The translations under genes and the position numbers were made by a program. DNA of 64,000 bases from Sabellastarte sp. h YS-2021 (Eukaryota > Annelida > Polychaeta > Sabellida > Sabellidae), in assembly GCA_964017235.1 (NCBI GenBank), contig OZ024936.1, positions 33,316,040 through 33,380,039 on the forward strand, read 5' to 3'. Each line of letters begins with the position of its first letter. Position 1 is the first letter of the stretch. A model generated the notes under the pieces. The model did no database searches and was not told the origin of the DNA. It saw only the letters and a list, made by a program, of their open reading frames with translations. Positions 1,305-54,440 of this stretch are shown here, piece after piece.

Positions 1305-3304
1305 TGGTAATATGGTTTATATGCAATCATAACCATTTTTGGGCACGTGTGCCTTGTTGAAATGGACACATTTTGAATATAGCCCTGTATATCCATAGGT
1401 AGACAATAGTCTAAATTCTCAAGCAATATAGACTATTGTCCAATGACTTTAGTATTACCATCTACCAGATGTCTACCAGAGGATATTAATTATTGTGTTA
1501 CTGAATGATTCAACTGTGCATTCGTGTTTCTGAGATGAACAATAACATAAAAAATAAGGACGAAGAACAAATATGTCAGAACTTGTGAAGTGATGATGTA
1601 AAATCAGAAACCGTTAAGAATACATTATGAGGTCTAATACGTATGAAATAATAATAATTGTGTATGGAGTAAGACAAGGATCAATATTTGGTGATAAACC
1701 TGAATCAAGAGATCTTTTAAGCAGCCCAACGAATTGCAAAAGGATTCCTGCTACTATAAATTATTTTATTCAACACAAACGTCAGAGTGATTTAAATTAT
1801 AAAAAACAACAATTTCACTAAAATGAAGTACCTCTCATTCTCAATATCTTAATAACATTAAGAGCTGTTGCAGATATCTTCTTTTATTTTTATCAATTTG
1901 TTTTTTGTTTGGATTTTCAACAATGTAATATCTTACAAGTAAACAGACAAAGCTATGAAAAAGGAAAATTGATTATCTTCATGAAAGAAAATGTTCTATA
2001 ATTCTGTTGTTGTTGTTTTTTTCTAGTTGCTGAAAGTATAAACATTTTTTTGTGAAACGAAAATGATATCTGTGATCACAAAAGACACATACTAACTTCA
2101 AAAACATATCTTATCTGTTCCAACTATGGATGTTAATATGAGTTATCACAGGAACCTAAACTAGATAATTTACCATCTAATCCCATCTAAACAACTGGTT
2201 TAATGTAAAGTATAGACACTATTCTTGTGATAGATAAAACACAAGAGACCAAGTGTACCTGTTTAAACATTATTGCTATTTATTTTTTTCACAAATTTGA
2301 ACATAAATGCAACATATGGAAAAAAGTTAAAACAACCCAGTGTATTAATAATAAATGCATTGTATATTATTGTAGACACCCTGTTTAAGAGAGACATGTT
2401 CAATACAATTCACAACTCAATCATTAACAGTCACATACACATGAAGACTTTATAAGCCAACACTCAGTGTCAAATTTCAATAACTCTAGTTATCAAAATT
2501 TTGTACAATCTAATCTAATGTGGACTTTTATAGCGCTTAATCTCAATCGCTGATGGACTCTAAGGTGCAAATACTATATACTATATTTGTTATTTACTAT
2601 GGTATCTTTTTTGAATGGAGAGAAGTGATAGCTAATCTTTTCCCTGAAGTGGTCAAAGTAGGGCCCCAAATTTAGAATCGACAAGTTCTTATGACAACTT
2701 GTACATATGGAACAGTAACATTAGAACGTATAATCACAACTGCCTCACATGTTCTACATCTCTGAGTCTCAGCATAAAACATTTTGTACATTAGTATTGT
2801 ACCAAAAGAAGTCTTTCCTTTCTCATGTATTCTTTGCACTAGTATTTTGATACAATTACCCAATGTGGAGAGCTTATTAGCCCCCATCTCTTCATCTTTA
2901 ATCCAGTTAACCCTTGTTAGTAAATATCACAGATTCTAGTAAAAATACCTTAGAGTTTACAAAATACTTAGAGTACACATAAGTCTTCATATCTGTATAA
3001 TGTATGATAACCAGTCTTTTAAACATTGGTGTACTGTGAAATAAACGTACACATAAGACTACAAATAATATTATAAACTGGAAAAATGAATTACAATTTA
3101 AATGACAGTAGCAGTTTGATTTGTATTTTTGAATCGAGTAAATTTGAAACACTTCAGCCATTAAGGGCGTAGCCTTTGTTATTTCTATCATGTGTAACCT
3201 CTATCTCAATGGACACAATTATTGCACAAGATAGTGCTTTTCAAAGTATTCAGTGTATATACATTTTGATTCAGCAGTCCAATGGGGTTAAAAACTTCAG
3301 CTAA
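1305..3304. other. 3' flank of CUB gene A, left part of duplicated block 1
   Basis: No protein gene is recognised. From about 2,030 this DNA matches the 3' flank of the second CUB gene (32,590-33,850). Shared short words include GAAGTCTTTCCTTT (2,808 and about 33,570) and CACTTCAGCCATTA (about 3,150 and 33,785). Near 2,520-2,575 lies TTTTATAGCGCTTAATCTC, which resembles the reverse complement of LINE 3' tails seen elsewhere in the window. Part of this region is probably the 3' untranslated region of gene A, but no clear AATAAA signal was identified. Confidence 0.55.
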
Positions 3305-6300
3305 TTAAGGAGTATACTCTGGTGGAAAGTGTGCAGCATCTACCTCCACTACTTCAGAACTCTTGGGCATGGTTTTGATCTCCCCTCCTGTAGCAGACTG
3401 TGCTGTGCTGAAGATGGAACCACCTCCTGCTCTTGTATCTCTGTTGCCTGTGAAGAACTGTGGAGCCTGGTCTTGTGGAGATGAACTGGATGCTTCTTGG
3501 ACAGGAATATTACCATCAGCTGTTCCTGTGGTAAAGAATTGTGGAATTTAGACTGGCCATATACTCTTGAATCATTCTCACTGAGTATAGAAGTTTTACT
3601 TAAAAGTACATATTTTCTTTGCCAATATTAAATGTATGATGCTTGTTTAGAACAAGTAATCCTGGTATTTTACTGTATGATTATGGCAAGTCACAGTGAT
3701 GGTACATCAAACTCATCTACCACCACCTCTAAGGTAATTTGGTCAAATGTTGGCAAGTGGTGATGCCAATAGGTTTCAACTGTAGTCTATTGACCAACTA
3801 GTACACAATGCTCTACTCACCCAGCTGCCACTTATAACATGACCTACTCACTAAAATATTACATTTAATGAGTCAAATCAAAATTGACAGTTCACTGAAT
3901 GTTTTCAGTGTATGAAGTAAATGTATGCTAATAAGAACATAACACAAATGTGCTTACTGTGCACCACACCCTGCACTCTGGCAGTGTTCTTCTCATTCCA
4001 GGCTATGACAATACATGTGATGACACAAGCGGTAAAGCCAACAATGATAGCAAGTCCAAACAGAGAGCCAACAACTATTGCTGCAATGAATCCAGCGTCA
4101 GAACCTCTATCTTCCCCTTCATGAGTCGGAGCTTCTTCTGTGAAAAATATTAGAATAATTAACAGAATATTCAATTTAAGTAAAAAATTTGACGAAAAAA
4201 ATACGTCACTTACAACTCATTGCAATAAGCTTGTAATCTTTCTGTGAACATCTGCTAGGGTGAACCTTCATCTGAAGAATATTTACACCAGAATTATTAA
4301 CACAAGTATTTGGTGCCTTGTTATCTATGATAGTGAAACTCTATTCCTTAAAAAATCTGTATTAATATCCTTTGTAGATAAGGATTGAAATTATATTGGA
4401 AAATATGTTAGATCATAATTTATGTATCTCATTGAAAATGTGGAATAGGTTATCGAAATTCATGAGTCCGCCTCTTGCAATGGTATGAAAATTTACTTGA
4501 TGATATCAAATATGGTGTATTGGTTTATATATCCATGAACATTTTCAAGTTCAACATAGAAAGTCTGCAGGAAAAACATTATAAATGTAAATATGTAATT
4601 CTATCTGCTGAGACTGCAATGCCGGATGTTTACCTGCAATTGTGTATGACATCTTAAACCCTTCATCCCCACCCTGACTGTCTGTGATGAACTCTACATA
4701 TAGGTACCTGCCCGTAGAGTCTGTTTTATAGGAATCCCTGTCTTCACAGATAGTTTCCAGCAAATCTCCCTCATCTGACAAAGTAAACAAGTGTTCCATA
4801 TTATCATTTTACTCGTACTTCCATGATGTCTTCTTCTATGTCTATGGGATTCACTGAAAGTCTGCGCTAATATTATCTGTGTTGTCGAGAGGGGCAAAAG
4901 TCTATATTTTATTTAATGTACATAGGTAATCATGTATTAAAAGATAATTTAGTCTATAATACTATGAAAAAGTACTCAGATGTGAGATATAAACCATCAA
5001 GCAATAATACACTGGCAAAGTATGAAGCAATGGGGGCATTGGTTGGTGTTGTATTTCAGTTTTGAGGTCAAAAGCCATGTCCAGTACATTTATTACTGAG
5101 GAAAACGAAAACAGTGATTCTGTTTCTGTCTGTCTCAAGTGTATTCATAAACATGAAAGAGGCATAACGGAGTTGCCAGAGTGATCATTTTACAATATAA
5201 TCATTTTATGCCTAATATGTCAGCAATAGTATTCCTCTGTGGATCATATTAAATATGTAGCTAAATATGTGTCTAATGACTGTTACAATTTGGGTAAATC
5301 TTTAAATATATTTACACAGTGTCATATATTGTTCTGTAATGTTATATCCTATGATTACATTTTAGCAGTTTGAGGAGGTTTTAGTGGTCCTGAGTTTGCA
5401 TCCAGCTCATTGTTATTAACCAGATATATTAACCTTGCATCAACTTTAACCCTTGCAGATTTTATCGTACAAATATTTCTGCTACAGTATATCTCAAAGT
5501 AACATTCATAAAATTATTAAATGAGTGTCAGGGACTATGTGGTGTAGTGGATTATGAACTATTTTCCCTCCTTTGGCTATGTGGAATGATTTAGAAGTTT
5601 TGGCTTTTATATGTATATCTATAAACTTCCCCCAGTAGTTTATGACTTTTCCATACAAAAATTTTAAAGATATGATCCATACAAAATAACAAAAACAGCA
5701 TAAAGCATTATTTAGGCAAACAAATCAATGGGTTTAGCTTTTCATCACTTGCCTGAGTCTCCATTGTAAATGTTCACCTTGTCACCTGACTGAGAGTTGC
5801 ATCCACCATTCAGATTAACTTCATCGGCATCTACCTCCACTCTTTGATCTTCATCTGCTTGTATGATCCAACATGTATGCTGGTTACTGTTATAAAATAC
5901 AGGAACACTTTACATTTGAAGAATATGAAGAGAAATGCATGTTGCTCCCAATCGCTGACACAATACTAGGGTGGTCATATCCAGGCTATCTAATTTAAAA
6001 TGTAGGAAAAGTTCATGGTTTGTGAGCTCTTGGCACTAAGTCCTGATTATTTTGTAATGTTGCTTTCTACATAAAACTGTGGTTGTGTTGCTTAAACTTG
6101 TTTCGAAAATTTATCAGGATTAAGTAAAGGGAATTGGTATTTAATTCTGCATCCTATCATTTAATGTTGCAGGTTATATTGTGATTCTGTTCTAGTGGTT
6201 TATCCGTTTATTTAATGTTTTATCTCACGCCTTGTACCTTATCGGTTTTGTATTGTGGCGGGTAGTTCGAAGGGCAGAAGTCACCAGTACATACAGTTGG

Positions 6301-7761
6301 TCAAGGTTCTGTACTGTAAACTGCCGATCAAAGGCAAAAGCTTTACCAGCTTTCCCACATGTCAGCAGGCCATTATTCAAACTCTGGTCTCAGAGGTGGG
6401 AGGTGAGTGTGTAACCACTGCATCACTGTGTCCATCTTATGTCCTATAGCTTCAAAGCAGCGTCTTCAGAGTGGTTTGTGACAATTTTAGCATTCAATCA
6501 CTCGGATCTCACTTTTGTTGTCGTGGGTTCAAGTCTAGCCCAGGTTCAGCCTTCAAGATTCCCTATGGGCCTGACCTGATATAACCTTAGATATAAGAAG
6601 TGGTGTAAAACCACCAAACTTGATCTGTGGTTCAACCGGTTTTCAAAAAAAAAATGTGTCGTTTGAAGTAAAGAAGCATGTTTAAGGGCAAGGAGTAGTA
6701 AAATATATAATGTTGATCCGAATATATTTTATAATTTATTTTCAATTCTATTTTTTGGGAAATGAACAGACATGTTTGACAAGAACTGGAAAATTTACAT
6801 GAACAAGGTTTGACTTAAATAGATACAAAATGGCTAAAACTCACTTTTCATAAGATGCTGTGCCGTAGGAACTGTGAGACAGAAAGTACTGGGTCTCTGT
6901 AGTAGCTTGCAGTCTCACAAGGTTCAAACAGGTGTCTCCATCAACTACACAAAGAGTCATCAAATATATTGATCATTTAATCAAAATCATAGAACGGTAG
7001 TCATAGAAATATACTGCTAACGTGATCAGAATCATAGAAAAAAGGTGAATTCAGAATCATAAAAAGGGACTTAATGGTGACTATAAGAATAATAACAGGC
7101 TGAGAGTTGTTTTCATTCTATATTTTCACAGGTTGAACACAAAATCCGTCCTTGTGTTTCAAGTATAATTATGTCTTTATGTACCAAATTCCACAAGTGG
7201 CAATTCTGAGGACCTGTCCCAATATGACCCTGGCTGTTGAACGGGACGTAAAACCCCAACTTTGACTTTGACTTTATGTACCAAATTATTATGTACGAAC
7301 AGATGATGCTTTGCCATTATGCACACACTGATTATACCATATGAACATGTACACCATGGTTGTACTAAGTCATAATATTCCCATGGATTATGCTTAGTCA
7401 TTATGTGCTAAATCATTATGTACAGATTGACTCGAATATGTCATTATGTAAACATTAATTGAGTTAAGTACTAACTTACACACTGACTGTACCAAAAAAA
7501 ATCATTAAAAAGAACATCACAAAATACAATTTATATATTTTACCTGGACTAAATTGGATATATCTGAAGCTAAAGATTTATGTACTTTGACATTTCCATC
7601 TTGTGTGTGCAATTCTTATTTGTTTATTACATTAATACATTATTTATTTACTTATGATTACAAAATGTATTAAAACATTTTAAAATAATCAAACCATATG
7701 TGTAATACTCACTGCAATAGATTAAGCCACAAAAATAAGCCAACATAAAAATAAACTTCAT
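3305..7761 (-). CDS. CUB-domain type I membrane protein, copy A (six exons)
   Basis: I reconstructed a spliced gene of 274 residues from coding exons 7761-7713, 6944-6845, 5886-5753, 4774-4634, 4137-3958 and 3525-3305. Intron phases are 1,2,1,1,1. Residues 1-16 form a hydrophobic signal peptide (MKFIFMLAYFCGLIYC). Residues 22-139 make one CUB domain with the four expected cysteines (C22, C55, C79, C104), the CWII motif, the YNGDS turn and the GRYLYVEF/EGF end strands. Residues about 157-187 are a transmembrane helix with a GSLFG small-residue patch. The tail of about 85 residues is Ser/Gln rich and ends in PPEY (269-272), a WW-domain ligand motif. All acceptors are AG; the third intron has a GC donor. 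Such proteins act as surface receptors or adhesion molecules; the ligand cannot be inferred. Its paralogue is at 33,965-40,165. No frame disruption was seen. Confidence 0.85.
5745..5756 (-). other. Non-canonical GC splice donor, intron 3 of gene A
   Basis: On the minus strand exon 3 ends ...GACTCAG and the intron begins GCAAGT, which fits the consensus of GC-AG introns (AG|GCAAGT). The equivalent site of copy B reads CAG|GTAAGT. The reading frame and the homologous exon boundary both require this position. Confidence 0.75.
6465..6654 (+). repeat. tRNA-derived SINE in intron 2 of gene A
   Basis: A box A-like word (TCAGAGTGGTT, about 6,466-6,476) precedes a box B-like GGGTTCAAGTC (6,525-6,535) at tRNA-like spacing. 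A body follows with a GTAAAACCACCAAACT tail word and then an A-run (6,645-6,654). This order (Pol III promoter, body, A-tail) is typical of a SINE rather than a tRNA gene. Confidence 0.6.
7199..7277 (+). repeat. SINE 3'-half fragment in intron 1 of gene A
   Basis: The segment carries GGCTGTTGAACGGGACGTAA followed by AACCCC and a short TTTGAC tandem tail. This word is typical of the conserved 3' domain of molluscan and other invertebrate SINEs. No box A or box B head was recognised in front of it, so the copy looks 5' truncated. Confidence 0.5.
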
Positions 7762-7780
7762 TTTCAATCAATTTCTGTCT

Positions 7781-7791
7781 TATATTTTATA
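7781..7791 (-). promoter_or_regulatory. TATA-like element upstream of gene A
   Basis: TATAAAATATA occurs 20-30 bases before the ATG of gene A on the minus strand. If it is a real TATA box the 5' leader would be almost absent, so it may be chance AT-rich sequence. Copy B keeps the adjacent GTATAAGACA word but not the full motif. Confidence 0.2.
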
Positions 7792-9980
7792 CTGATCTTT
7801 CCCTGGTTTTACTGGAATATTATAACTATCTAATCCTTCTGTGTGTATGGATAACACATTTACAGGATTAATAAATCAATTCACTGGTTAGACTGTTTAT
7901 TTTATATTATAATATTCCTTGCTCACTGTTTGTATTTGCTTGTCAGTGTGAGTCTGTTTTCTTGCTACCCAGAGTCATTGATTTATCGGAGCTAGGTTAA
8001 CATAATCAAAATTGTCCTCAGATTTTATGGTACAGAAAACTTCTATATGGATAAAACCCGAGTGTTTGGATCCAGCATATGTCGCAATAACATTTCACTG
8101 TTGGTTACTATACTTGCTTGAAATCAGTTTTTCTCTGTTGGATAATCAAAATCCTGATTTCATAACTTTAAAAATATTCAGTACTGTTTAGAATTTTATA
8201 TTGCTTCAGACACTAGCATCCTAGAATTTCATTACCAGTTGTTGCCAATCTTTTATATCTCCAGTTTAGTTAGTTCGGCAAACCTACATGACAATTATAT
8301 TAATACAATTTACATGTGTAAGAAGCACTAATATTTAACCAAAAATTCTTATAAATTACATGTGACAAAATTATGTAACAATACAGATGTATTTTATTTT
8401 ATCCTTTTTATATGAAAATCCATACTCATAACCACATTTTCTGTATATGAGTTCATATTTTGTGGAAACACAAGAAAACATATACATTGTTGTATTGTAT
8501 TTATATTTATACTCAGTGCAATATCCCTATGTACTACAGGATTCAAAGCACTATATGATACATTGGCCTGTACAAGTACAGTCCAACTCTCAAATTACAG
8601 ACATTCCCCTAACTGAAAGACAGAGGCTCAAGGATAACAGTTTATCAACGTCCTTGAAGTTCTTTAACCTCCCAGATAGGATGGAACCTAATGACAGAGG
8701 ACCGCCATTTTAAGTGGTCATCCAAGCCACTATATATCTGCCTGTACCTGGGATTGAGCCGACGTCCTCTGTGTTCCTAGGCGACCTTTTATCAGACAGA
8801 CTCACGCCAGAAGCAAACACAACAAAACTTATTGACTAGGTTATACATAGGTAACACCATTCTGTGATGAGAAGCTACAAGTTGTGTACTTTTGGTTGTG
8901 GGGTTATTGTGATACACTCCACATTTTGTATTGATAGCATATCTTCAAAATGATTCGATGGGATTCGCAATTAATGTAGGACACCATCCACACAACATAG
9001 ATTGTGATTTACATTCAGCAGCACTGCTTTAATTGTTTGAAAAGTCTCCCGCGACCCCTCACAATCCACACCAAAATGTGTATGCTGGAGGAGAGAACAC
9101 CATAAATATATACAGTCTGAAGTTTGTCAGCTTGGAAGTAAATACTCACAGAAACCACCATATGAAAAGGTATGACCTAGGCATAAGTAGTTGTATTGCT
9201 AATGCAAATTATGAAAAGATTACCAACCATATGTCACACGGTACATATTACAATTTCTCCCTTATATGAATCACAGCCATATGTGATAGAACCTAAGTAT
9301 CAATATATGTTCCATTGATGTAACACAAAAACAATTATTGCAGCAAATTTACCACACTAATTATATTGAATGATATTAAGCAATACTATAACAAGAAACA
9401 GAACAAAAGGTATACAACATAAACGCAATAATGTCACTCCGTTATAAACTGGATAGATTTTACCATATTTTATTTTGTAGCGCCTTCACAGACTGTGATA
9501 TTTTGCAGTTCTGTTTCGACTTATAAGCAATCCGGGGATGATTTACACTAGGTCTCAGGATGAGCCAGGTTACAGGCTAGGCCGCTGGTTCAAACCTTTT
9601 AGGCTCACAATCTGTTTCCCAAAAGTTGATTCGGCTGAAACTGAGCTGAGCCAAAAGTCTCAACTATAAGTCACTTAAATTCTATAAAATTACATTGTTT
9701 TCCACAAATGTACTTTGGAATATACGAAGTTTAAAAATATAAACATTAGCATGATCATGGATGACTGACACAATTTTTTTCATTTCATTTAAATGAAAAC
9801 AAGGGCACTCAGAGTGCACTCTGCCAAGGCACATAATAATATGTAAATAGGAACATCCAGATGTTTTTTTCTGAATCCAGATCAAAATTTAATGGGAACC
9901 AAGTTGGACAAAGACCCATCTTATGATTCCAACAAGTCGTATTTACCTAAATCTGATGACAGACAAATAAAAACACAAAC
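7792..9980. other. 5' flank of gene A, block 1, with dispersed repeat
   Basis: Sequence up to about 8,230 matches the 5' flank of gene B (40,170-40,580), for example TTGATTTAT followed by GGTTAACAT. At 8,510-8,625 there is a dispersed repeat sharing CAGGATTCAAAGCACTA and ATTCCCCTAACTG with 34,970-35,085. Around 8,735-8,760 an antisense box B-like word (GGGATTGAGCCGACGTCC) hints at an old SINE. The rest holds no recognisable gene. Confidence 0.5.
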
Positions 9981-10855
9981 ACAGGGGCGTAGGAAGCAAT
10001 TTTTGGTTGGGGGGGCGAGAAACCAGATTGCACCGACGCGACGCAACACCAACAATTTTGGTTAATTTTACAGAATGTATTGCATATAGGTAATATTCAA
10101 ATGGTCCAATTAAAATATTTTAAAGTTCCTTTACCAAAGGAAATCTTTGTGACGACATCAATCCTAAGTTGTCCTGACCTTGTATGGGTATAGAAATACA
10201 TATAGTCACCTCTGCATTTGAAAGGTATTTCTAATATCTTGACTACATGTTTCCAGAACCTGTGACCTTTCCTTCAAGTGCTGAGCTGATACAAGATCTA
10301 ATTTTAGCAAGGTTAATCCCCAAATTAAGGGGGATGTATAATCGTTGGACTGGCCAGGTCCAATAAACACACAGTAAAGAAAGAAGAGATTTCTGGAAAA
10401 AATCTTATCAGCTGACAAATTGCTGTGCTAAGCAATTGCTCTGTGTGAATTTGAAACTACATGTCTAGGTTCTATTTTAAATTAGTAACATGGTAAATTA
10501 AATGTAGAAGATTACTATATGTATGATTTTGGTCTGCATAAGTGAAACATTTCACAGAATTTTACAAATCCCATGACAGGTTAACTGAAAATGTTCCTTT
10601 TTACAAATCATAAAAATAAATATTTTACAGTTCAAATGGTAGCTTACACAATGGTGCATGTGAGCAATGAACAAGGTAAAAGTGTAATTTGACCACATAT
10701 TATTGAGTTACCTGTTAAAATTTACATAAACGTCAAAACTGGAGTTTAGTTCTTTTGCAAAAAGTTGGGGGGGGGGGGGTGAAAAGATATCCCCCCCCAA
10801 CTTTATGGTTGGGGGGGGCGGCCGCCCCCGCTGCCCCCCAGTTCCTAGGCCTATG
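9981..10855. mobile_element. G-rich MITE-like element with short inverted ends
   Basis: The left end reads AGGGGCGTAGGAAGC and the right end, reverse complemented, reads ATAGGCCTAGGAACTG, so the termini are imperfect inverted repeats. Runs of G and C follow each end (10,767-10,779; 10,791-10,798; 10,811-10,836) and could fold back on one another. No protein is encoded. I could not find a convincing target-site duplication. Confidence 0.55.
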
Positions 10856-12170
10856 AAACAGACAAATCAGACAAATGGTTATGAAAATAATGCCTCATTT
10901 GAAGAGGTGACAAGCTTAGGGGTTGGCAATGAGTAAGGATTTGTCACAGCAGAATATTTGAAACGTATGTCAACTTTGTGGATTTCTATTGAAATTGCTG
11001 ATATTGTCAGTACATCCTTATCCACTGGCAAAAAGGGTGTATGTTGGTTTGTACAGCAGGTGGAACTGATTAAATCCTCAACTGTTGGGCAAACTTAATA
11101 GGGCGTTCTGTGGCGGTACATTCCCACATCAATTCAGCTCCAGGAAATCTGATTGTCTTAGCACTGTATTGTCTCAGAGACCCATAAAGTAAAACTGACC
11201 ATGTCTCAACCTGACCCTGAGAATGATGCAAAACTGGAACTACAGCATGGATACATGATTTGACAGCCATTACGAACTGTATACTAATGTTATTTACATT
11301 AATTACAATAGATTTTGAAAAAAAATACACAAAAAAAAACAATCTTCTGGAGTGTATACAAAATCGACTGGAAGGACTACTTATCTGTATTAGTCAATAG
11401 ATATTTGGGTAAAAACATTTTTGCCAAGCATAAACATAGCAACTGAACTGTGACTAGTATTCTATTGGTGAAGTCAGAAGAAAATTAATCACAAGCCAAA
11501 TATAAATATACTAAACTCTACTTCCCCGTTTTTTGTGTCTAAATAAAGGTTTGTTTTATGTCCATGCATTGGGGTACATTTCTAGAATCGGTGAATATAT
11601 AATATTTATTATTTCCTCATTGTAAAGCTCTAACCAACACAAAAAGTTTTCACTCTAAGGACGATAAGCTTTTGTCATATGATTTAGCATTTTTATGTTT
11701 TTAATTGGATTTAATATGGCACTTTCACGACTACTATTTCAAGGCAGTTTGTGAAAAAGGTAGGGATAGTTACAAGATACTGAACTTCTGTTCTGCGGTT
11801 TGGATATGATATTGTTTTAGGATTAGTCAGGTTTCTTCCATTAAATTTTTAGAAAGTTCAATTGCTTTATAAAGAGCTATCTAACCCTGTATTTACAGCT
11901 TTGTAAAGGGGTATTTTATTTTATGTTTGTTTATTTTTCTTCTCTGCAAGTCAGCTGGACTTCTTGTAAATTATATTGCAATAACATTGTCGATATATGC
12001 AGTAAATTGTCAGGAAGAATGTTAATAATTGTTTATCTTTCTGAAAAATGCAAGGATAAATATCTAAAGCAGAATATATTGCAAGATGTATATAATAAAA
12101 TGATCGACCAGTGCCTAAGATGTGTCAATAATATTTCTTATCTGGTCTCATACTGTTAAAAATTAAGGTA
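10856..12170. other. Unassigned part of block 1
   Basis: No gene is recognised. Sequence at about 11,470-11,705 matches 46,885-47,085 (CAAATATAAATA, ATTGTGTCTAAATA-like and TTTAGCATTTTT words in the same order). This places the stretch inside the large segmental duplication. Confidence 0.5.
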
Positions 12171-12179
12171 TTTTAGTAA

Positions 12180-20046: not shown

Positions 20047-20059
20047 CACTTCTTACTGT

Positions 20060-40165: not shown

Positions 40166-40169
40166 GTCT

Positions 40170-43187: not shown

Positions 43188-43290
43188 TTCTTTGGTTTGG
43201 GTTCTATGTGCTATTGGGTTTGTCTGTTTCTTGGTTGGTGGTTATGTTTGGTATTGGGTTTGTGTGTTTGTTAGTTGGTAGCTATGTGAT
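43188..43290 (-). repeat. Inverted diverged copies of the 42-bp unit
   Basis: TATTGGGTTTGTCTGTTTCT and TATTGGGTTTGTGTGTTTGT, followed by TTGGTTGG and TAGTTGG, are the complement of the 42-bp unit. About two units face the array 200 bp away, so the two could pair. Confidence 0.65.
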
Positions 43291-43768
43291 AATGCCTTTT
43301 AACTCTAGGGGTGGTGTAAGTGTTGCACTTTTTTATTACATATTTTAACCTATCCCATGGATTTTAAGCTAAAAATGGGCTGATTATTGGTCATATTGGG
43401 AGTTTATTTATTTTAATTTTTTTTCTATGTGGCCTTTTTTCATTATGTGTAGTACCATGGGTTATTTGTTTCATGTTTGGGGTGGTGTGGGTGTTTTTTT
43501 TTTTGTGATAAGTATTTGTACTGAACTGTTATGTTTTGAGAGGGGAATTTTAATAACGTGCAGCTTAATAATTGTTTTTGGAATATTTTGGTGGCCCTGA
43601 AAAGGGCCTGGCAGGTCAAAGACCCACCCTGACTGGATTGCTACTAAGGAGGCTGCTGCTGTTGAGGCGATGCTGTGGTGGTGATAGTGAAGAGTTGCGG
43701 CTGCTGCTGCTGAGGCGGCTCAATGATCTGTGTTGATGTCAGATCTGGTAACTGGCTTAGTATTCCAC

Positions 43769-44905
43769 TTAGGTTGTGTCTACCTGTACTGTTAGAACTG
43801 ATGTAGGGTTTCCAAAGCCAATGGGCCTGGGTGTGTAGTAGATGTAATTGCTGCTAGCTGCTGCTTGGGTGGAACTAGACACCTGTTGAGTGGTTGTTGG
43901 CAGTATCCCGACCCTCTGGGACTCTGTGGTGATAGTGGCTGATCTTCTAGGTAGTGGTTGATGTCTACGGTTGCTCTTAATGGTTTCAATGTCTCTAAAA
44001 ATCCTACCCTTGAGGTCCCCAAACTCCTCTTGGGTCATCTTTTCAGCCTCTGATGCCACATAGTCGAAGAAGGTCTGCCTGTCTGACTTCTGCTGCAGGA
44101 AACCTGAGATCAATGTCCTCATCTGGTCAAAGTGCTCGAGTATCTTGGAGGCTGTTGAAACTGGTGTAGATGTGAACATAGGTTGACTCCTAGTCTCCCT
44201 CAAGACACTGGACTCAAGGTGTTCTGTATCAGATGTAGATCCACGAGATTCGTCCTGCTTGCTGGTGTTTGGACTGGCTTTGAACCCTGAGCTTCTGCTG
44301 GCCCCCTTGCGTCTGATGTGGGTCTTCAGGAAACCCATCTGCTGGTAGGCCCAGGACTGTCTCTTGATCATCTCCCTTGGTTCTTGGCCAGATTGTAGCT
44401 TGGAGAGCTTGTCATAACGTGTTCTCTGGCATTCGAACCATCTTCTGACAGCAAAGGGCTGGAACTTCAGTTCTGCAGAGATTTCTGCCCAGAGAGCCTC
44501 CTTCTTCTGTCTGTCATGGAAACGTGCATGCTCCTTGTCGTACAGCTCTGGATGCTCCTTCACAAACTCCCCAATTGCAGTTTCTTGGCTGTCAGTGAAT
44601 GTGGCACAGACCCTGGCTCTCTTGGCTCCCGAGTGACTCTCTGAATCTTCTTCACACCTCTCATCTTCTTCGCAAGCTTCCTCAGTAACTTTCAAACGTT
44701 CCTCTGTCTCTTCTGTACCCTCCTCTGTCCTCTCCTCAGTTCTTTCCTCACTCCTTTTCTCCATCCTCTCCTCCAACTCTCCACCTTCCAACTCCCTCTC
44801 CTCTTGCCTCTCATCCATCTTCTTCTTTCCTCTCTTTCCTCCTTTCTTTTTCCTCATAACTCCAGTCAATGTAAAAAAAAAAGTTAAAGAATTAAAATGT
44901 GTCAC
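43769..44905 (-). CDS. Harbinger accessory DNA-binding protein (MADF/Myb-like)
   Basis: This is an intact frame of 378 residues from the first ATG. The ATG at 44,857 (MRKKKGGKRGKKKMD) gives 362 residues and starts with a basic nuclear-localisation-like stretch, so it is the likelier start. A strongly acidic and basic Glu/Arg-rich segment follows (residues about 30-95). The conserved domain covers about residues 105-170 (IGEFVKEHPELYDKEHA, ALWAEISAELKF, VRRWFECQRTRYDKL). It fits the MADF/Myb-like trihelix pattern with spaced Trp and Phe residues, found in the second protein of PIF/Harbinger transposons, which brings transposase to the nucleus and DNA ends. The C-terminus is Ser/Thr/Gln rich. 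It is the only undamaged protein of this element. Confidence 0.75.
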   Translation of the reverse strand: MTHFNSLTFFFTLTGVMRKKKGGKRGKKKMDERQEERELEGGELEERMEKRSEERTEERTEEGTEETEERLKVTEEACEEDERCEEDSESHSGAKRARVCATFTDSQETAIGEFVKEHPELYDKEHARFHDRQKKEALWAEISAELKFQPFAVRRWFECQRTRYDKLSKLQSGQEPREMIKRQSWAYQQMGFLKTHIRRKGASRSSGFKASPNTSKQDESRGSTSDTEHLESSVLRETRSQPMFTSTPVSTASKILEHFDQMRTLISGFLQQKSDRQTFFDYVASEAEKMTQEEFGDLKGRIFRDIETIKSNRRHQPLPRRSATITTESQRVGILPTTTQQVSSSTQAAASSNYIYYTPRPIGFGNPTSVLTVQVDTT

Positions 44906-45089
44906 CTAACTGTAAAATTTGCCCTAAGCTCAAGTATATTATATGATATTTAAAACAACTGAAAACCCCTGCAAAAAAACAGTGACACACGTCTCTCAGT
45001 AGCCAACCAGTCAGTAACAACGAGAACATGTGCGCGGTTGCTTATATAGTCTCAGACCCCCTCATTGCCTCGTTTTAATTTCCGACGCA

Positions 45090-46376
45090 CGGAAAATAGT
45101 TGGCTCTTAATCGGTTCTTAGTCCCAGACCTCCTGGGGCCTCCTCAGTCCATTGCAGACTAAATTTGTGTTGTCCCAGGTGGCCTGAAAACGCCAGCTTG
45201 GATCGGTTAGGGTCAGTTTCTCTTGGTCTGGGCTTAGTTCCAGACCTTGATTTTTGAGTCCCAGGACACCTGAGACGATCTGAGGCTTTCCGGGACTAAT
45301 GAAACCGATTCCTTTTCACACGCATAAAACTTCAAAGTTTTTTCGAAACCGAAATCACATACCCAAGTACCCGAAACTACTGTCAATATCGCCCACTTTG
45401 GCTGACGAGTACTACCGATATATCTGGAATTCATAAATTCTGTTTTCTCACCCTTATACACCATTTATATTATTTAATTTGTCTTTTATTTTGGTTGTTT
45501 ATGCATTGTCAAATGCCGATACCCTTTGAAAAGCGTCAGTGTATTAACACAGTTGAATAATACATGTACATGAAACGTTGTATATATTGCTAATATGGTG
45601 ACATGCACACCTTAAATAAATAAAAGTACAATGTTTTCAAACAGTAGTTCAAAATTTAGCATCAATAAAGTTCACTTACCTGCCTGAAAAAAATAAGGTT
45701 TCAATTCCGAAACTACATTCGAGCAACAGTGAATGCTTTATTGATAGGTCATGTGATTCCACTTTTATGGACACAACCGTGTTTTGAATGTACAAAAATT
45801 TCTTCTTGGTTAACATTTCTTCTGTGTTGTACTGTTTTGAATGCAAAAAAGGTGGCTGACGAGAAATAATTAGTAAATGGTTGGATCCCATTATTGGTGT
45901 ATGTTTTAAGTTTGTAAATGTGGAGATTTTTGTAGAATCACCTATTATCGCCCATCGGCGCGAGTACCCGGGTACCTGCTCGCTGAAATCAATACCTACC
46001 CGGTCCCACCAAAAAGGGTATTTTGTGAAACTACTTCAAAGGTCTGTTATGAGTCGGGGACTGCCAAACAGGCCTCCTGGGACTAAGCTACGGACGCCTG
46101 GGATTAAGGGTAGCAGGAAGCCTGGGACAACATAGGACTGTGTAAATTTGGGTCTGAGGAGGCCTGAGGAAGCCTGGGACTGGACATTTTGATGACAGCG
46201 GTAAAAAAGAATCGGTTTGAGTCATGAGAAATATCAAACATGTTTGATTTCTCTCACGGCCACAACCGATAACTACCGACCCTATCAGGACGTCTGGGAC
46301 TAAGCAAATTTTTGAAACTGACTCCCAAAAACCCTTTATCGGGAGGCTTAGTCGCGTGGTGGAACACCCACATAAG
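45090..46376. repeat. Right-hand non-coding part of the Harbinger element
   Basis: Two clusters of CTTAGTCCCAG-type words (45,110-45,300 and 46,040-46,376) flank a unique AT-rich stretch. The second cluster contains AAACATGTTTGATTTCTC, shared with 21,425-21,445. It could be one element end with an insertion or an element plus an adjacent MITE. Confidence 0.5.
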
Positions 46377-46399
46377 CCAATAGTCTCCAGACAATTCAC

Positions 46400-47780
46400 T
46401 GAACTGATACTCTCAGCAAGTGTTCTGCGACTCCCTAAGACACTGTCACTCGTCGGAATGATGGGCCTTGACAGAGGTATGAGCTCTCCAAATGCCTTTG
46501 ATTTGTCTTAAGCATTAAAATACAGTATAGTGACGTCATTCTATTGTTAAAACAATAGATTCATTCAACTGAATGTACTGTTTTTTTTCTACTGTTTTCG
46601 TAAAGGGAGCCAAAGTACAAAGTTTAGCCTAAGACTATTTACAGGTAAGCCTTCAAATGTCGCTACATTTTAAATTCCTGTATCAGTATTTTACATTCTT
46701 TTAAAAATGCAGTCAAACTATTTTGTGTGTGATATTCGTAATTTTAATGTAATACAAGTTGGGACTTAAGAACTATGTAGAATGTGCTGACATTTACCAA
46801 TATTCATTTTTTGTTGTGTAAAAACTTTAAAGGGGAAATATTAAATATACCAATATTTAAAGGTTTTACGTTGAATATCAACCTCAGCCCAAATATAAAT
46901 AAGCTAAAACTTACTTCCCTGTATATTGTGTCTAAATATAGGACGATTTTATATGCAGGCCTTGGATCCATTTCCATAATCAGTGCATATATAATATGTA
47001 TATTTTCTCATTGTATGGCTCAAACCAGTGCAAAAGTTTTTCATCAGAAGGATGACAAGGTTTTCTCATATATTTAGCATTTTTTATGATCTTTCTTTTG
47101 ACTTTAAGATGGCACAAGTTGATAATTAATAAAATTACATAAAAAAGACAACTTTCACAGTAACAAATTACAATGTTAGTGGTGTGTTAATATATTTCTT
47201 TTATTTTAAACTTTTTGTGTGTACATGCCATGATGAAAAAAAAACATTTGAACTATTTCACAGAGAACAAAAGGTACAAGAATATTTTCAGAACACTGTG
47301 TCATTTACAATGTGTTTTTAAAAAAGCTCCATTTCTTTAAATGTTTTTCTACATTGCCTAACTTATACAAAGCAATAGAAGAATGAATCAATCATGAGCC
47401 TATATTTTGACACTTTTTGAAATTTAAACCTCTATATCTTGACTTTTGCTCAACATATTTTAATGTCTAATAGCTCATTGGATAGGCATGTCTCTTAGCT
47501 ATTACGTGTTATAGTTTTATCTGAATCATTATGTTGAAAATATATGAAAATCATAATTTTATCATGATAAGAAGTACAACACCTGTGAATCAATTAATGA
47601 GCCTAATTCGCACTATGTGAACCTTGGATGTGCAGTGTGAGTATTTAATTTACTTTCACACTTTACATGAACACTATATACGGAAACCTGAGTAGATTTG
47701 GTATTGTACTATGTGGGATGAACATATTTGTCATAATATTGTTTCACACACACACATATATCTATAAAACCGATTTATTA
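46400..47780. other. Block 2 stretch without recognised gene
   Basis: AT-rich. Sequence at 46,885-47,085 is the counterpart of 11,470-11,705. The plus-strand open frame of 97 codons at 46,784-47,077 is not kept in block 1, so it is not supported as a gene. Confidence 0.5.
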
Positions 47781-48059: not shown

Positions 48060-48640
48060 TTATTTCTACCCATGTGTACTAGGTGAATATGTCTCTACTA
48101 TGGCAGGTGAACACACCCTGGCAAAAACCAAGAAGTACTTGACTGATTTAGCATACCTACAACATCCAAGCAAAGAAACACCCAGTAATTTCCTTACAAG
48201 ACTTAACAGTTTCTGGGATATAACCCAGACAAGATTATAAAGGCCAAGTTCACAACAAAAAAGGTAAAAGGTTTAATCAAAGCCACATCATGATGGTCTA
48301 CACCTTCACACTAACCAGTGTCCATACGAAGTATTTACTTCCTGCACCCTACAACCTCCAAGACATAGCTTGAATTGGATTGAAGGGTCAAGATCACTAC
48401 GGCGGGGTCGAACATCAACTGAAGGTCACACCATTGTTTTGCTAAAATGCCCCTACAACCGATGTCCCTACCTAGTATCCACATCCCACACCTCACTATT
48501 TGGAGACACAGTATAGTCACGCTGTTTCCCATGCCCGCCTGCCCGGTTGCTAACCTGCCCACTCACTTGCTCCCCTACCCACCCATTAGGATAGCACAAG
48601 TGAAAAAAACAATAGCCGTACTGCCCTTATAGGTTGTGAG
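48060..48640 (+). mobile_element. Satellite-cored element, decayed copy
   Basis: The left border has ATGGCAGGTGAACACACC, as at 51,775-51,795. One or two satellite units (CAGTGTCCATACGAAGTATT, CAAGATCACTACGG) follow. The right border has GTGAAAAAAACAATAGCCGT and ACTGCCCTTATAGGTTGTGA, resembling 52,235-52,270. Confidence 0.55.
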
Positions 48641-49279
48641 TTAAATACTTATACTACTTAAATTTTATTTTTATATAGGTTTCATTTTATTACAGGTTTT
48701 ACCTTTCTTGTACAGAAACATTATTTTCTGTTTATTTTCCATTCAAGGCAATTAAACATAAATCATAACATAACAGATATTAGATGTACAGGTGTTTAAA
48801 CGATCATTTTATTGATCTAAATCCTGGATATTAGACACAGGGGCTTTTAAAAAGACCATTTTATCTATGTAGATTTATACCAGATTTTTATCATACCCTT
48901 ACCAAAACTTTTTGAAACTATATTTTCCAGTGTATCTATGGTACATATTAATCTCTGACACTGAGCAATGTTAAAGCTGATTCATGCATATGCAAGATAA
49001 AATTATATATTACTTGAAACTTATTGTTGTATTTTTTACTATTTTAGTTCATTTTTTTAAACTGAACAACATACACCTATTCAAGCATTTGGGGGCTGGT
49101 GACAAGGTGATGAAATTTACCTTAATAATACTATATTAAAACTACCATATTTTTATAATCATAGCAATTATTTGCTGAAAATAAAGTAATGTGATTTACC
49201 TTTGTAATACCTCATTAAAACTAACATATTCATGTCTTTAATATCCTATCTGTAAGATTTTAAAACTCATGGTGATTTT

Positions 49280-49975
49280 GACAAAATCAAAAGTCACACC
49301 ATAACTTTGCACACATACATCCCATAACCAATGTCCCTACAAAGTAAAAACTTCCTACACCTTACAGTTTCAAGATATAGCCTGGACAAGATTTTATGGT
49401 TCAGGGTCATTTCGGTAAGCTCACAGGTCAAATCAAGGTCACACCATGACATTGTCCTCCTACTGCCCCTAACCAATGTCCCCACCAAGTATCAACTTCC
49501 TACACCTTACGGTTTCTGAGATATAGCCCGGACATGATTTTACAGGTCAAGGTCACTACAGCAAGGTCAAAGGTCAAATCAAGGTCATATCATTATGTTG
49601 CACACTTACAAGCACCTAACCAATGTCCCTACCAAGTATCAACTTCCTACACCTAACAGTTTCCTATATATAGGCTGGACAAGATTTTATAGGTCAAGGT
49701 CACTATGGCAAGGTCACAGGTCAAATCAAGGTCCCGCCATGACATTGCACACCTATACCCCCTAACCAATATCTCTTCTAAGTATCAACTTCCTACAACT
49801 TATGGTTGCTGAGATATAGCTCAGACAAGACTTTCAAACTCAAGGTCACTGCGGCAAAATCAAAGGTCAAATCAAGGTCAGACCATGACATTATAGAACT
49901 ACACCTCCAACCAATTGTCCCCACCAAGCATCAGCTTCCTACACCTTACAGTTTTTGAGATACTCAACCTGAGCC
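49280..49975 (+). repeat. Satellite array, period about 145 bp, five units
   Basis: CCAATGTCCC occurs near 49,330, 49,473, 49,619, 49,764 (variant) and 49,911 (variant), i.e. spacings of about 143-147. Each unit includes TATCAACTTCCTACACCTTA, GATATAGCCCGGACA and AGGTCAAGGTCACTAC. The unit is the complement of that at 37,430-38,150. Unique element ends are lacking here. Confidence 0.75.
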
Positions 49976-50139
49976 ACATACAACTTCCAAGCTATCCACA
50001 TTTGGCTTGTTTTAAATCATATTTGTCAATACCTTTGCCACACATTCTGGTGGACAGCCTTAATCTCTCCAAAAAATGCTGCTACATTATAAACATGTAT
50101 TGAAAATTTGCACTCCACTAAAAATGAACTGGGTAGATT

Positions 50140-51090
50140 ATTTTGATCATTTAATGAGCATTTTGAAGTTCTTTACGCTCATTCATCAAAAGTCCCCCAA
50201 GAAGTTTTTCTCCCCTCCACTGTTTTTTATCCCAAATCTTGTTATCGAAGAGACCAATGTCACTAGACCATACTGTGTCATGGGAGTGGCTTCTACCAGT
50301 TCTTTATCACCGGTGTCACCTTGAGATCCTGGTTCTGTGTGAACTTTGCTCGAATCACTTTTTCCATTGCTTCTTCCATCTTATTTCTCCAGTGTCCTGC
50401 TTTGAAACCTTTTATGTTAGATCCTAGCCGTTTCTGCTCAACAGGGTCTGTCGCTTCCATAATTAGATTTTCCTGTTGCTTATCACCAAAAGCAAGGGCC
50501 TTTGCCAGCCTGAAAAACTGCTTCGAGCTTAAGAAAGTTTTTCCTTCTACCTTGAATTTTGCTGGATGGTGGTTGCTAAGTGGTGAGTACTTTGGGAAAA
50601 AGGCTGCTTTATCCCCTTTGGTCCTGGTAAAAATATTAGCTGGCTGCAAGTCTTCAGGCAGTTGGTGAAGATTATCTACTGTATAAGTATGCCCATTTAG
50701 TATTAGACTGTCATCCTTAAGCCACACATTATTCTTCTTTTCTGGATTATGTGCAGATTGTTTCTTTGCTTCAAACATAATCAGCTTTAAAACTTTCCAA
50801 GCTTGGAACACATCAGTCGGCACATCGTCCTCAAGCCTTACATTGAACCTGGACCTCAACTGCTTACTGTATTTCCACATCTTACTTTTAACATCCGGAT
50901 GGGCAACCTGTGCAAGTATAGGGTTTGGTTTTTGTCGCAATGTGATGCACCTCTAACATTTCTGACAACTCAATGGGGGCTCCCACTGAGAGAAACAAAT
51001 CAGCAATCACCATTTTACAATTCTCATCCTTTTTCTGATTGGCCCCTAAGACTTTAATGTTGTTTTTTCGGTGTGTTAATATTAAGTAAA
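50140..51090 (-). pseudogene. LINE ORF1p-like protein fused to a NADAR domain
   Basis: On the minus strand the sequence starts with RKNNIKVLGANQKKDENC and VIADLFLSVGAPIELSEML, the RNA-binding core of L1-type ORF1 proteins. After a frameshift near 50,940 it continues open to 50,293: KPNPILAQVAHPDVKSKMWK, a KKxxL..F...LEDDVP block, NNVWLKDDSLILNGHTYTVD. Next comes a NADAR (YbiA/DUF1768) domain: AFFPKYSPLSNHHPAKFKVE, FLSSKQFFRLAKALAFGD, DPVEQKRLGSNIKGF, HWRNKMEEAMEKVIRAKFTQ. A second frameshift follows, then DKELVEATP, DTVWSSDIGL and GEKLLGGLLMNERKELQ, the NADAR end, to about 50,145. NADAR enzymes cleave N-glycosidic bonds of ADP-ribose-like metabolites. No ORF2 lies alongside. The full-length order is kept but the reading frame is dead. 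Confidence 0.75.
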
Positions 51091-51449
51091 CACTTTCTTT
51101 ATTTTATTGAAGAGTCAGTGACAGAAGAATCAAAATATAATTAATACTCATAAGATGTTGTCAGGCTTCATTCATTTTTTTTTTAATTTCATTAAAAAAC
51201 AAGTATCTTACTTTGTAGTTACATCTTTAAAAATGAGCATTCGACTTTTATGTTTATATGCTTGTTCTTCTTGTGAGTCAGCTGGAATGGTTGGAATGCA
51301 ATCTTTGAAATATCAAGCACAGATCAAGGAATGATATAAATATTTTTGTTTCATATTTTAAAAAAATCACAATATCTCGGCAAGAATTACAATAAAATCA
51401 TTGGGCTGTGCCTTGGTGTCAGTAATCTGTATTGGTCAGATATTGTTAA

Positions 51450-51625
51450 AAATAGCATCAGAAATGCCCGTGCCCCACAGCCTGGGGAAATAGTTTTCAA
51501 AACCATGAGATATAGAAGTAGTGAAACAGTACAAAGATCAGGATAGGGATGAGCATTGTCAGTTATATAAAGATCCAAATAATGTTTAAGTAAAGAAAAT
51601 AACGTCTTAAAGAAAGTGACAGCAT
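51450..51625 (+). repeat. Dispersed repeat R, copy 2
   Basis: Counterpart of 37,285-37,430. Here an extra stretch (GCCCGTGCCCCACAGCCTGG) follows AAAAATAGCATCAGA. Confidence 0.6.
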
Positions 51626-51716
51626 TAATCAGTAAACTAAATATTATGAAGCTGTAAAATTTATTAATTGCAGAATAGCTGTCAATGGAAAAAGCACAAT
51701 TATGTAAAAGTGCTTA

Positions 51717-52275
51717 TAATAATCAGTTGCAGCAATCCATATATCTTTGTCAATAGGAGAAAGATGTCTCAAATATGGCAGGTGAACACACTTTGGCTGA
51801 GCAAAAGTTAAAGGTCACACAATGAGTCACACATTCAACCCTATCCAGTGTCCCTACCAAGTGTCAACCTTCTACACCTTATGGAATCCAAGACAAGATT
51901 TTAAAACTCATGGTCACTACAGCAAGACCAAAGTCAAATTAAGGTAACACTATGACGTGGTGTGACCAATGTCCCTACCAAGTATCAACTTCCTACACCT
52001 TACAGTTGCCAAAATATAGCCTGGATAAGATTTTATAAGTCAAGGTCATTATGGCAAGGTCAATGTTTAAATCAAGGTCACACCATGACGTTGAACACCT
52101 ACACCCCCTAACCAATGTCCCTACCAAGGATCAACTTCCTTCACGTTATGGTTTATGAGATACAGCCTGGACAAACTTTTTCACACTGCCCACCCACCCA
52201 AATACCTGCCCTGCCCGCCCATTCGGACACCATGGGTGAAAACAATACCGAGACAGCCCTTAAGGGCTGTGGGGT
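51717..52275 (+). mobile_element. Satellite-cored element with palindromic 3' end
   Basis: The left border ATAATCAGTTGCAGCAATCC, ATATATCTTTG and CTCAAATATGGCAGGTGAAC equals the complement of 38,150-38,228. Two to three satellite units follow (CCCTACCAAGTATCAACTTC repeated). The right end has CCTGCCCGCCCATTCGGACA, then ACCATGGGTGAAAACAATAC and a perfect 18-bp palindrome at 52,253-52,270. A near-terminal hairpin is a trait of Helitron-related elements. No transposase is encoded. Confidence 0.65.
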
Positions 52276-52289
52276 AAAAGCTAAGGTAT

Positions 52290-52780
52290 TTTAATAACTT
52301 TTCTGTAGTCTAAAGCTTTCTGAGTTGTTTCTATCCTGCAGATTGCATGTTACCATACAAGATGATACAGTACCCCAATATTTTCTTACTTTGCATGTGC
52401 CAATATTGCAGACAGCACGAAGATGCAATAATTCAGTGCTTTCTGGTTGCTGTCTTCAATCTCCTAGACTTTATGTTGTAACACAATGATACTAAATCCA
52501 ATGCTTTCTTAGTGTTTGTTCTATGTAATGAAAGGCATACTAATATGGCAATCCAATACATTGTACTGCTTGTTATCTTGTATACAGCATCTTACCACCT
52601 TATGATGCAATCATCCAACAGTTTCTTACTGCTATCTTCTGTCTTGCATATAACATATTACGCTACAGTCACCCATTACTTTCTTACTGCCATCTTCTAT
52701 ATTGTACACAGCATGTTACCACACAATGATTCATTGACCAATGCATGTATAATATTTCTGTCTTCCAGGCAGTATGTTAT
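52290..52780 (+). repeat. Tandem repeat of about 65 bp, block 2 copy
   Basis: About eight diverged units without interruption, each with TTCTATCTTGTACACAG, CATGTTACCACACAATGA and an AATGCTTTCTTACTGC-like end. The last unit (TCTGTCTTCCAGGCAGTATG) leads into the PDHA-like pseudogene, as in block 1. Confidence 0.65.
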
Positions 52781-53833
52781 TAAATGGCACAATTCCTACA
52801 GCAACCTCCCACATACCAGAGGAATATGGGTACAAACTCCACAGTTCGGAAGAAATTCCCTGTGCTTTTGTGTCTGTTACCAGAGATGAAGGCTTGCATT
52901 CTACAGGAAAATGGAGACAATACTGAGATTGACAGGACTGTCAAACCCATGTACATAAGGAAAAAGGTTCAAGAGATTGGTAATCTGTGTACAGGCAAAG
53001 AAACAATAAATGTAGATATGATGGCTGCAATGTCCTGATGATAATTTTATCACATTATACAGAACATATACCTGGACATTATCTATGGGTATTTCTTCAC
53101 TCTAAATATTTGCAGAATTGACTGGGAGAGCATCTGGATATGTAAAGGGGAAAAGGCGGTTACATGTATTGGGAAAAATTCTATATTGGGAATGGGATAA
53201 TTGGAGCACAGGTTTCCACCAGAACTGGTATTGCACTTGCTCAAGATAACAAGAGTATCTGTATCACTTGAGATGAAGCAGTCAATCAGGTACGAGTGTT
53301 TGAAGTTATGGGACCTGTCATGGTTGTGTCCAAGAATAATCATTTTGGTATGGGAACATTTGCAGGGAAAACCATAGCCCACAGTGAATTTTATACCACA
53401 GGATACTACATACATTGACTCTGGGCAGATGGGATGAATGTTCTGACAGTAACAGAAGCCACAAGGTTTGCCTTGGTTTATGTAAGGTCTGGAAAAGGCT
53501 ATCTAGTGATGGAGTTAGAAACATTTAGATATAATTAATTTATTTTGTAAAATGTACAAGAAAAGTGGTATGTACACAAACTTTCAAAAAATGTTTAAAG
53601 TCAATTTATATAAGTTTAAACAATAAAGTAAGAAAGTGTTTGAACAAAAAAATGTGTATATAAACAGTCGCACAGTATCAGTATAAACAGTATCAGTTGT
53701 TGATAACAGTACATTACTTAATAGCAATGACCCAGAACCACTTCAGTTAGAGCTGTACACCTATCTACAAAGACCAACCGCTGGATTATTGGCTCAGAGG
53801 ATATGACCCCTTTACATGGGTCAAGGCCATTAA
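52770..53833 (+). pseudogene. Pyruvate dehydrogenase E1 alpha pseudogene, copy 2
   Basis: Shifting frames give GTIPTATSHIPEEYGYKLH, VSVTRDEGLH, a weak TGxET region, then GNGIIGAQVSTRTGIALAQD, NKSICIT with a stop in place of the cofactor-binding Gly-Asp-Gly region, VMGPVMVVSKNNHFGMGTFA, then [20 protein letters not shown] and [16 protein letters not shown] (to 53,537). About 190 bases of unrelated DNA follow, then the C-terminal PEPLQLELYTYLQRP at 53,730-53,780. It keeps the middle section that copy 1 lost, so the two copies decayed independently after duplication. Many stops and frameshifts; no introns. Confidence 0.8.
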
Positions 53834-53919
53834 ATCGCTGCAATTTTGTAATTATTAAAACAATCATGTTAGATGTCAAGACTAGTTTGTAGAGTTAATG
53901 ATATGATATTTTTGAATGT

Positions 53920-54440
53920 CAAAGCTATTTTAAGTAAAAAAGCCACTGTCTTTTATCATTGTCATATCTACACATCAAGATTATTTGTTTGTAAATACAT
54001 GTACATGTATCATTGCTCGTTAATTTCTACAAAATAAAATGAATTTCTAGTAACATGTTTGAGTACGTACTAATATATTCAAGTTGGATAGATTCTCACT
54101 AGAATTTAGAGTATCACCATTTCCATCCCTTTTAACTGGTCTATTTGATACAACAGTCAATAACTAATGGCATGTTACATTACACTAATGTAATGTGATT
54201 GCCACACTTACAAACGCTTACAACATTTTCCATTTCTGCCCAAATCAATCTGACAGCCAAAAATTGGAAAATTCTAACTTTTCACAGAGCTGAAAGTAGT
54301 AGCCCTTAGTACCCAGGGCTCCAAAATATGCCCTGTGACACTATAGGTTAGGTTTGGAAGCGGCTACAATAAGATGCAGACAAGACAGGACAGTTTCCAG
54401 GTGAGTGGAACCACTGTTGGGATCAAAAGTCAGGGTCAGT
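53920..54440. other. Right edge of block 2 and following DNA
   Basis: About 53,920-54,060 matches 15,600-15,760. After that nothing is recognised. Confidence 0.45.

Follow-up and report, generated by a model that had tools for sequence, protein, structure and literature searches.

Probable old tandem duplication of a CUB gene and an intronless, now broken PDHA copy in a sabellid annelid genome

A stretch of 64,000 nucleotides from the polychaete Sabellastarte sp. h YS-2021 (contig OZ024936.1, positions 33,316,040 to 33,380,039 of the forward strand; hereafter the window, in which positions are counted from the first letter) contains two copies of a predicted CUB-domain gene, each accompanied by a broken, intronless copy of a gene for the pyruvate dehydrogenase subunit PDHA. 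Did both pairs arise in one event, and was the PDHA copy still a gene when it was doubled? The reading that we favor, with a probability of about 0.8, is an old tandem duplication of a unit composed of the CUB gene and the intronless PDHA gene, in which PDHA had long been functional before both copies of it died, at about the time of the duplication or later.

Compared at high sensitivity, 1-17 kb and 31-56 kb gave a same-strand collinear chain (score 2,495) joining 2,018-15,795 (block 1, 13.8 kb) to 32,587-54,095 (block 2, 21.5 kb). The chain used 17 of the 38 hits offered, covered 4,415 bases of copy 1, and showed identity of 67-94%; two of its hits were individually non-significant (9,964-9,981 / 42,998-43,015, E = 1.7; 6,122-6,167 / 35,932-35,977, E = 0.49). 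Under the same settings, the control scores were 79 for the reverse complement of block 2, 76 for reversed block 2, and 138 for 16-31 kb against block 2. From left to right, the chain pairs the 3′ flank of the CUB gene (2,018-3,304 with 32,587-33,964), the CUB gene (3,305-7,761 with 33,965-40,165), its 5′ flank (7,762-8,231 with 40,166-40,575), an anonymous stretch (11,480-11,722 with 46,873-47,115), a 65/66-bp repeat, the PDHA copy (14,558-15,498 with 52,797-53,833, both on the plus strand), and a right flank (15,499-15,795 with 53,834-54,095). The repeat is split in block 1 into a left part (12,157-12,387, pairing with 52,275-52,504) and a right part (14,314-14,557, pairing with 52,543-52,796) by a 1.9-kb insert that the repeat of block 2 (52,275-52,796) lacks. 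In each unit, PDHA stands head to head with the minus-strand CUB gene. The segments at 8.2-11.5 kb of block 1 and 40.6-46.9 kb of block 2 had almost no mutual match.

The initial annotation of this DNA had described six block pairs in the same order and orientation, with lengths of 13.8 and 21.5 kb. Order, orientation and approximate coordinates were all recovered by self-comparison and by the sensitive comparison, and both lengths were correct. A match confined to coding exons would have spoken against the duplication; flanks, introns, anonymous stretch, repeat and right flank match as well. In a search of the 1.786-Gb genome, in which counts of places are lower bounds, the anonymous stretch (recovered in block 2 by both the chain and this search), the left part of the repeat, a 1.4-kb CUB 3′ region and the DNA of PDHA copy 2 matched at the two places in the window only. 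Self-comparison of the window revealed no common repeat at the block edges, and no tRNA genes were found. The end points of the copied unit are eroded and no longer visible; the event is old.

Divergence was counted over alignable parts only, so that the absolute values are biased low. The Kimura two-parameter (K2P) distance was 0.316 in the 3′ flank, 0.325 in the CUB introns, 0.334 in the 5′ flank, 0.310 in the anonymous stretch and 0.320 in the right flank. Together these five non-coding blocks had 533 differences at 2,052 sites (26%) and were homogeneous (p = 0.99). Because they have one divergence, a single duplication event fits. Lower values were found in the 65-bp repeat (K2P 0.241; 94 of 462 sites differing, p = 0.012 against the five blocks) and in PDHA (K2P 0.243; 138 of 672, p = 0.005); a joint test of all seven blocks gave p = 0.053. 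The one age expected for every block thus holds for the five non-coding blocks, but not for PDHA and the repeat. Two facts here weigh against a single event. The lower divergence of PDHA can be explained by constraint; the repeat, which is non-coding as far as known, is less diverged too, and the tests run gave no explanation for it. These two values are what would be expected if the CUB duplication and the PDHA pair were separate events, joined by chance or by a mobile repeat. Such an origin is very improbable, because the divergence of the CUB flanks recurs on both sides of PDHA, in the right flank and in the anonymous stretch that separates it from CUB, and order and orientation are preserved over 13.8 kb. 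An assembly artefact in which two haplotypes of one locus were placed in tandem would also yield the same genes in the same order. However, 26% non-coding divergence is far above the allelic expectation, and the CUB proteins are alike at 161 of 267 residues, which leaves the artefact hardly any credibility. With collinearity of coding and non-coding sequence and one divergence in five non-coding blocks, the pair is a tandem duplication. Recent segmental duplications are recognized by identity over 90%; at ~74% non-coding identity, this one is not among them.

Both CUB gene models were predicted from splice signals and conservation, on the minus strand. Copy 1 (3,305-7,761; 274 aa) has exons at 7,713-7,761, 6,845-6,944, 5,753-5,886, 4,634-4,774, 3,958-4,137 and 3,305-3,525. 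Copy 2 (33,965-40,165; 267 aa) has exons at 40,117-40,165, 36,919-37,015, 35,756-35,886, 35,197-35,337, 34,555-34,731 and 33,965-34,173. The six-exon reading is stop-free in both copies, with identical intron phases. The predicted protein has a hydrophobic start, a single CUB domain, a single membrane-spanning stretch and a short tail. Copy 1 scored 45.6 bits against Pfam PF00431 (CUB), above the cut-off of 21.4 bits, and copy 2 scored 19.9 bits, below it; copy 2 is homologous to copy 1, with which it shares its exons and, within the CUB part, four aligned cysteines. Of 267 aligned residues, 161 are identical, and the ratio of nonsynonymous to synonymous substitution rates (dN/dS) between the copies was 0.52 (bootstrap 0.38-0.72). 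We read these predicted models as a CUB gene that survives intact in both blocks. The intron after exon 3 opens with GC at 5,751-5,752 in copy 1 and with GT in copy 2. A protein database yielded 424 candidate relatives of the protein, none of them at E ≤ 0.01.

Related CUB exons lie upstream on the same contig and strand and, with copies 1 and 2, make up at least nine genes over ~193 kb (C14:33,163,254-33,356,204). In the 60 kb to the right of the window, the sole hit had E = 0.75. The duplicated pair is the high-coordinate end of a same-strand CUB array. The direct segmental duplication proposed initially therefore stands as one event comprising CUB gene, flanks, anonymous stretch, repeat and PDHA, but it is not a lone one: it ends a tandem array. 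A tree was built from eight array genes, the ninth being outside the fetched stretch; in it, copies 1 and 2 were sisters with support 100/100, and copy 2 had the longer branch. Changes in copy 2 and copy 1 relative to single outgroup CUB genes were 13:3, 13:4, 13:4, 11:3, 10:4 and 11:2; by outgroup majority the ratio was 16:8 (p = 0.15). Among the 28 pairs of eight CUB units, the window pair had by far the longest collinear match (score 2,446; next 841, some scores of other pairs deriving from mobile repeats). The window duplication is not necessarily the latest in the array, because the proteins of array pair B, C are more alike (identity 0.82, vs 0.54 for copies 1 and 2). That a gene array grows by tandem duplication is ordinary. 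The duplicate would have been made inside the array by unequal crossing-over or a different tandem-copying error. As in tandem multigene families grown by unequal crossing-over, same-strand paralogues stand in a row, copies are adjacent, and flanks are copied with the gene. Unlike in such families, the unit in the window also carries an unrelated intronless PDHA gene, and its end points can no longer be seen.

The single PDHA gene that was found to match the two copies lies on the minus strand of contig C11 and has at least seven exons, from which 352 residues, all but the start, were assembled. Its exons end at coding bases 174, 301, 393, 642, 782 and 891. Copy 2 is uninterrupted across the first four of these junctions, and copy 1 is intronless across 174, 301, 642 and 891, with gaps at or beside 393 and 782. 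The absence of the parent introns identifies both as processed retrocopies, and the original would have been made from mRNA of a multi-exon PDHA gene. Because both copies are intronless and lie in the same duplicated flanks, retroposition predates the duplication, as had been concluded earlier from the sharing of the retrocopy. Relatives of copy 1 in other animals were ordinary PDHAs among the 120 of 6,198 matches listed. In a PDHA tree, the copies, the parent and one unnamed protein split from 17 other rows with support 92/93; the branch of copy 2 was very long, and the parent gene did not group with the seven sampled molluscs.

Both PDHA copies are broken. Copy 1 has stops at parent codons 43, 123 and 212, deletions of 178 and 3 bases, and a one-base insertion near the end; its last 138 codons are open. 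Copy 2 has the stop at codon 212, six more stops, ten deletions and one insertion, four of the six further stops and some of the gaps lying within a poorly alignable stretch; the part matching parent bases 741-950 is unrecognizable. With stops and frame-breaking deletions in both, neither has the open reading frame of a present-day functional retrogene. The TGA at codon 212 is the sole disablement clearly common to both. No common indel was found outside the unalignable stretch of copy 2; two overlapping gaps inside it (parent bases 783 and 784) cannot be judged.

The history before duplication was different. Between parent and copy 1, differences numbered 55/215 at codon position 1, 37/213 at position 2 and 122/214 at position 3 (columns present in all three sequences, with the bad stretch excluded). 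In a three-branch codon model, the branch from the parent to the ancestor of the copies had omega (dN/dS) 0.03-0.09 in fits with its own ratio, with synonymous changes beyond saturation; this branch merges the parent's history with that of the copies before duplication. Purifying selection on the protein, the mark of a past functional retrogene, is thus seen on the pre-duplication branch. Because free evolution would have left the copy hardly recognizable, its lineage encoded a protein for most of the pre-duplication time, and the PDHA copy was probably a functional retrogene through most of its existence, in which it would have served as a pyruvate dehydrogenase subunit. The label of PDHA pseudogene given in the initial annotation fits the present state of both copies but not their whole past, since omega of 0.03-0.09 does not describe a passenger dead throughout.

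The same constraint would belong elsewhere if the copy had been retroposed shortly before duplication from another PDHA gene that is now lost or unassembled. The merging of parent and copy histories in the branch to the C11 gene, the 92/93 support for the split of copies and parent with the very long branch of copy 2, and E1_dh hits on C2 and C5 that were not compared one by one with the copies all leave room for such a source. However, no closer PDHA was found: a 138-residue query at E ≤ 0.001 retrieved two C11 exons and the two window copies only, and an N-terminal query at E ≤ 0.05 retrieved the same three genes only. We consider a lost source unlikely.

When the PDHA copies died is a harder question. 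Private changes in copy 1 and copy 2 were 19:61 at codon positions 1+2 and 20:15 at position 3 (Fisher p = 0.001). A set of 18 animal PDHAs together with the parent is invariant at 65 positions; 19 of these are altered in copy 2 alone and 2 in copy 1 alone (p = 0.0002). Across the 209 positions usable out of 352, copy 1 alone has 8 residues, and copy 2 alone 43, that fall outside the range of these proteins. At the 40 residues where both copies differ alike from the parent, the commoner animal state was in the parent in 22 cases and in the copies in 15, with 3 ties. With equal block rates, omega was 0.29-0.43 for copy 1 and about 1.1 for copy 2; tests of copy 1 under equal rates gave p = 0.0003 and 2e-6 in two site sets with copy 2 neutral, and 0.004 and 0.0002 with copy 2 free, with the caveat that selection and unequal rates become indistinguishable once the branch lengths of the codon model are left free. 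In a comparison insensitive to unequal rates, PDHA positions 1+2 (90/428) were slower than the flanks (533/2,052; p = 0.03), and third positions showed no difference. One history that would fit is that this lineage had a PDHA2-like retrogene of its own, active for very long beside the CUB array, and that, once it had been doubled with the unit, one copy was abandoned immediately, whereas selection maintained the other through more than half of the subsequent time before it too was lost; we offer this detailed course tentatively, at somewhat less than even odds.

Several observations weigh against a copy that outlived the duplication. The TGA at codon 212 is present in both copies, with just 0.06-0.14 identical parallel stops expected; it would need coincidence, conversion between copies, or death before duplication. 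Six of the 65 invariant positions are altered in both copies. Given this common stop and these six positions, loss or loosening of PDHA may predate the duplication. When branch lengths were free, neutrality of both copies was not rejected (twice the log-likelihood gain from freeing copy 1 was 2.0 and 2.8 in the two site sets). The non-coding 65-bp repeat was as slow as PDHA positions 1+2 (p = 0.80). Its polarized changes in copy 1 and copy 2 were 12:15 in the left part (p = 0.70) and 5:16 in the right part (p = 0.03), and pooling the parts gives 17:31, for which no significant difference from PDHA (19:61) was found (p = 0.16). The favored reading as a whole is also weakened by the upstream frames of both copies, in which, short of a systematic search, neither a start nor a mitochondrial presequence could be seen.

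Most of these points, together with the faster change of CUB copy 2 against its outgroups, are what would be seen if the PDHA copy was already dead, perhaps only just, at duplication, and the mutation rate of block 2 was about 2.5 to 3.6 times that of block 1. Such a rate difference should also have appeared at third positions, which showed no excess in copy 2, though they are near saturation. The low equal-rate omega of copy 1, the slowness of positions 1+2 (shared, as said, by the repeat) and the lack of a common indel outside the unalignable stretch also argue against it. We give this combination of early death and a faster block 2 only slightly less than an even chance, and the narrower choice between selection on copy 1 after duplication and neutrality with a faster block 2 is close to even. 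In the reading that we favor, an old duplication of a long-functional PDHA, loss would have come around or after the duplication, in copy 2 first, and mobile elements would then have entered each block and the spacer separately.

The inserts described here are the transposon-like ones that were recognized. The 1.9-kb insert in block 1 (12,388-14,313), which splits the 65-bp repeat, contains a piece resembling 709-1,136 in inverted orientation. A stretch private to block 2 (40,600-46,400) has a DDE_Tnp_4 open reading frame (ORF; 41,676-42,377, plus strand) and a MADF ORF (43,772-44,905, minus strand), which we take to belong to a PIF/Harbinger-like element; the transposase frame has 93% identity over its whole length to another genomic copy. 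Intron 1 of CUB copy 2 contains a satellite-bearing repeat (37,291-38,229) found in block 2 only, with relatives at 48,193-52,194. In both regions the tandem unit is 146 bp long and occurs in either orientation; related repeats lie farther upstream in the CUB array, and all of them probably represent a mobile element family with a satellite core. Between such repeats, an ORF with a NADAR domain (50,296-50,940, minus strand; Pfam 3.2e-18) was found inside a block-2 insert. Because each recognized insert is private to one block, insertion after duplication fits. The insertion chronology proposed earlier holds to this extent, but the inserts are not ordered among themselves. The difference in block length was likewise ascribed to private insertions, which applies to the recognized inserts; the remaining unmatched sequence may have been inserted, lost from the other block, or altered too far to be recognized.

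The spacer between the blocks (15,796-32,586) has retroelement frames at 16,044-20,815 (plus strand): a 922-codon frame that matches reverse transcriptase (5e-13) and, weakly, RNase H, and behind it a frame whose integrase-like match is weak (0.01, below cut-off). The whole resembles a DIRS-type element. At 26,813-30,415 (minus strand), a weak reverse transcriptase match (23.7 bits, below cut-off) and a GIY-YIG frame lie in one stretch, a combination seen in Penelope-like elements. To the right of block 2, 59,283-63,724 (plus strand) contains retroelement pieces with endonuclease and reverse transcriptase, then reverse transcriptase with RNase H.

Behind both convergent frames of the putative PIF/Harbinger-like element is a histone-type 3′ stem-loop (Rfam RF00032; 42,570-42,615, plus strand, and 43,568-43,613, minus strand). 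The two scored 31.0 bits (below the cut-off of 34) and 35.8 bits and have a near-identical tail after the loop. By eye, among the genomic matches listed, 3 of 75 scored stem-loops lay within 8 kb of one of 150 scored transposase copies (on C3, C4 and C18). The mRNAs of this transposon possibly end like replication-dependent histone mRNAs; a literature search on transposons with histone-type stem-loop ends found nothing.

The closest comparison for the PDHA copies is mammalian PDHA2, described as an intronless retrogene of PDHA1 that serves the male germ line (PMC12377818). Like PDHA2 as described there, the PDHA of the window is intronless, lies away from its multi-exon parent, and shows signs of past function. 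Unlike PDHA2, it belongs to another animal lineage and is broken in both copies. Because both copies are broken now, we do not class it as PDHA2. With processed pseudogenes it shares the lack of introns and the presence of stops and frameshifts, but constraint as strong as that seen before the duplication does not suit a copy of the C11 gene that never functioned. Titles and abstract openings of the open-licence literature searched named no PDHA retrogene outside mammals.

If our reading is true, this annelid represents a second lineage in which an intronless PDHA was long kept and then lost, which bears on how often this enzyme subunit gains a second gene and when that gene becomes dispensable. 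If the retrogene was in fact kept in one copy after the duplication, the locus would document, with dates, how a metabolic retrogene died in nature. Because the recognized inserts lie in one block only, the paired blocks would also serve as a clock for mobile-element insertions in this genome.

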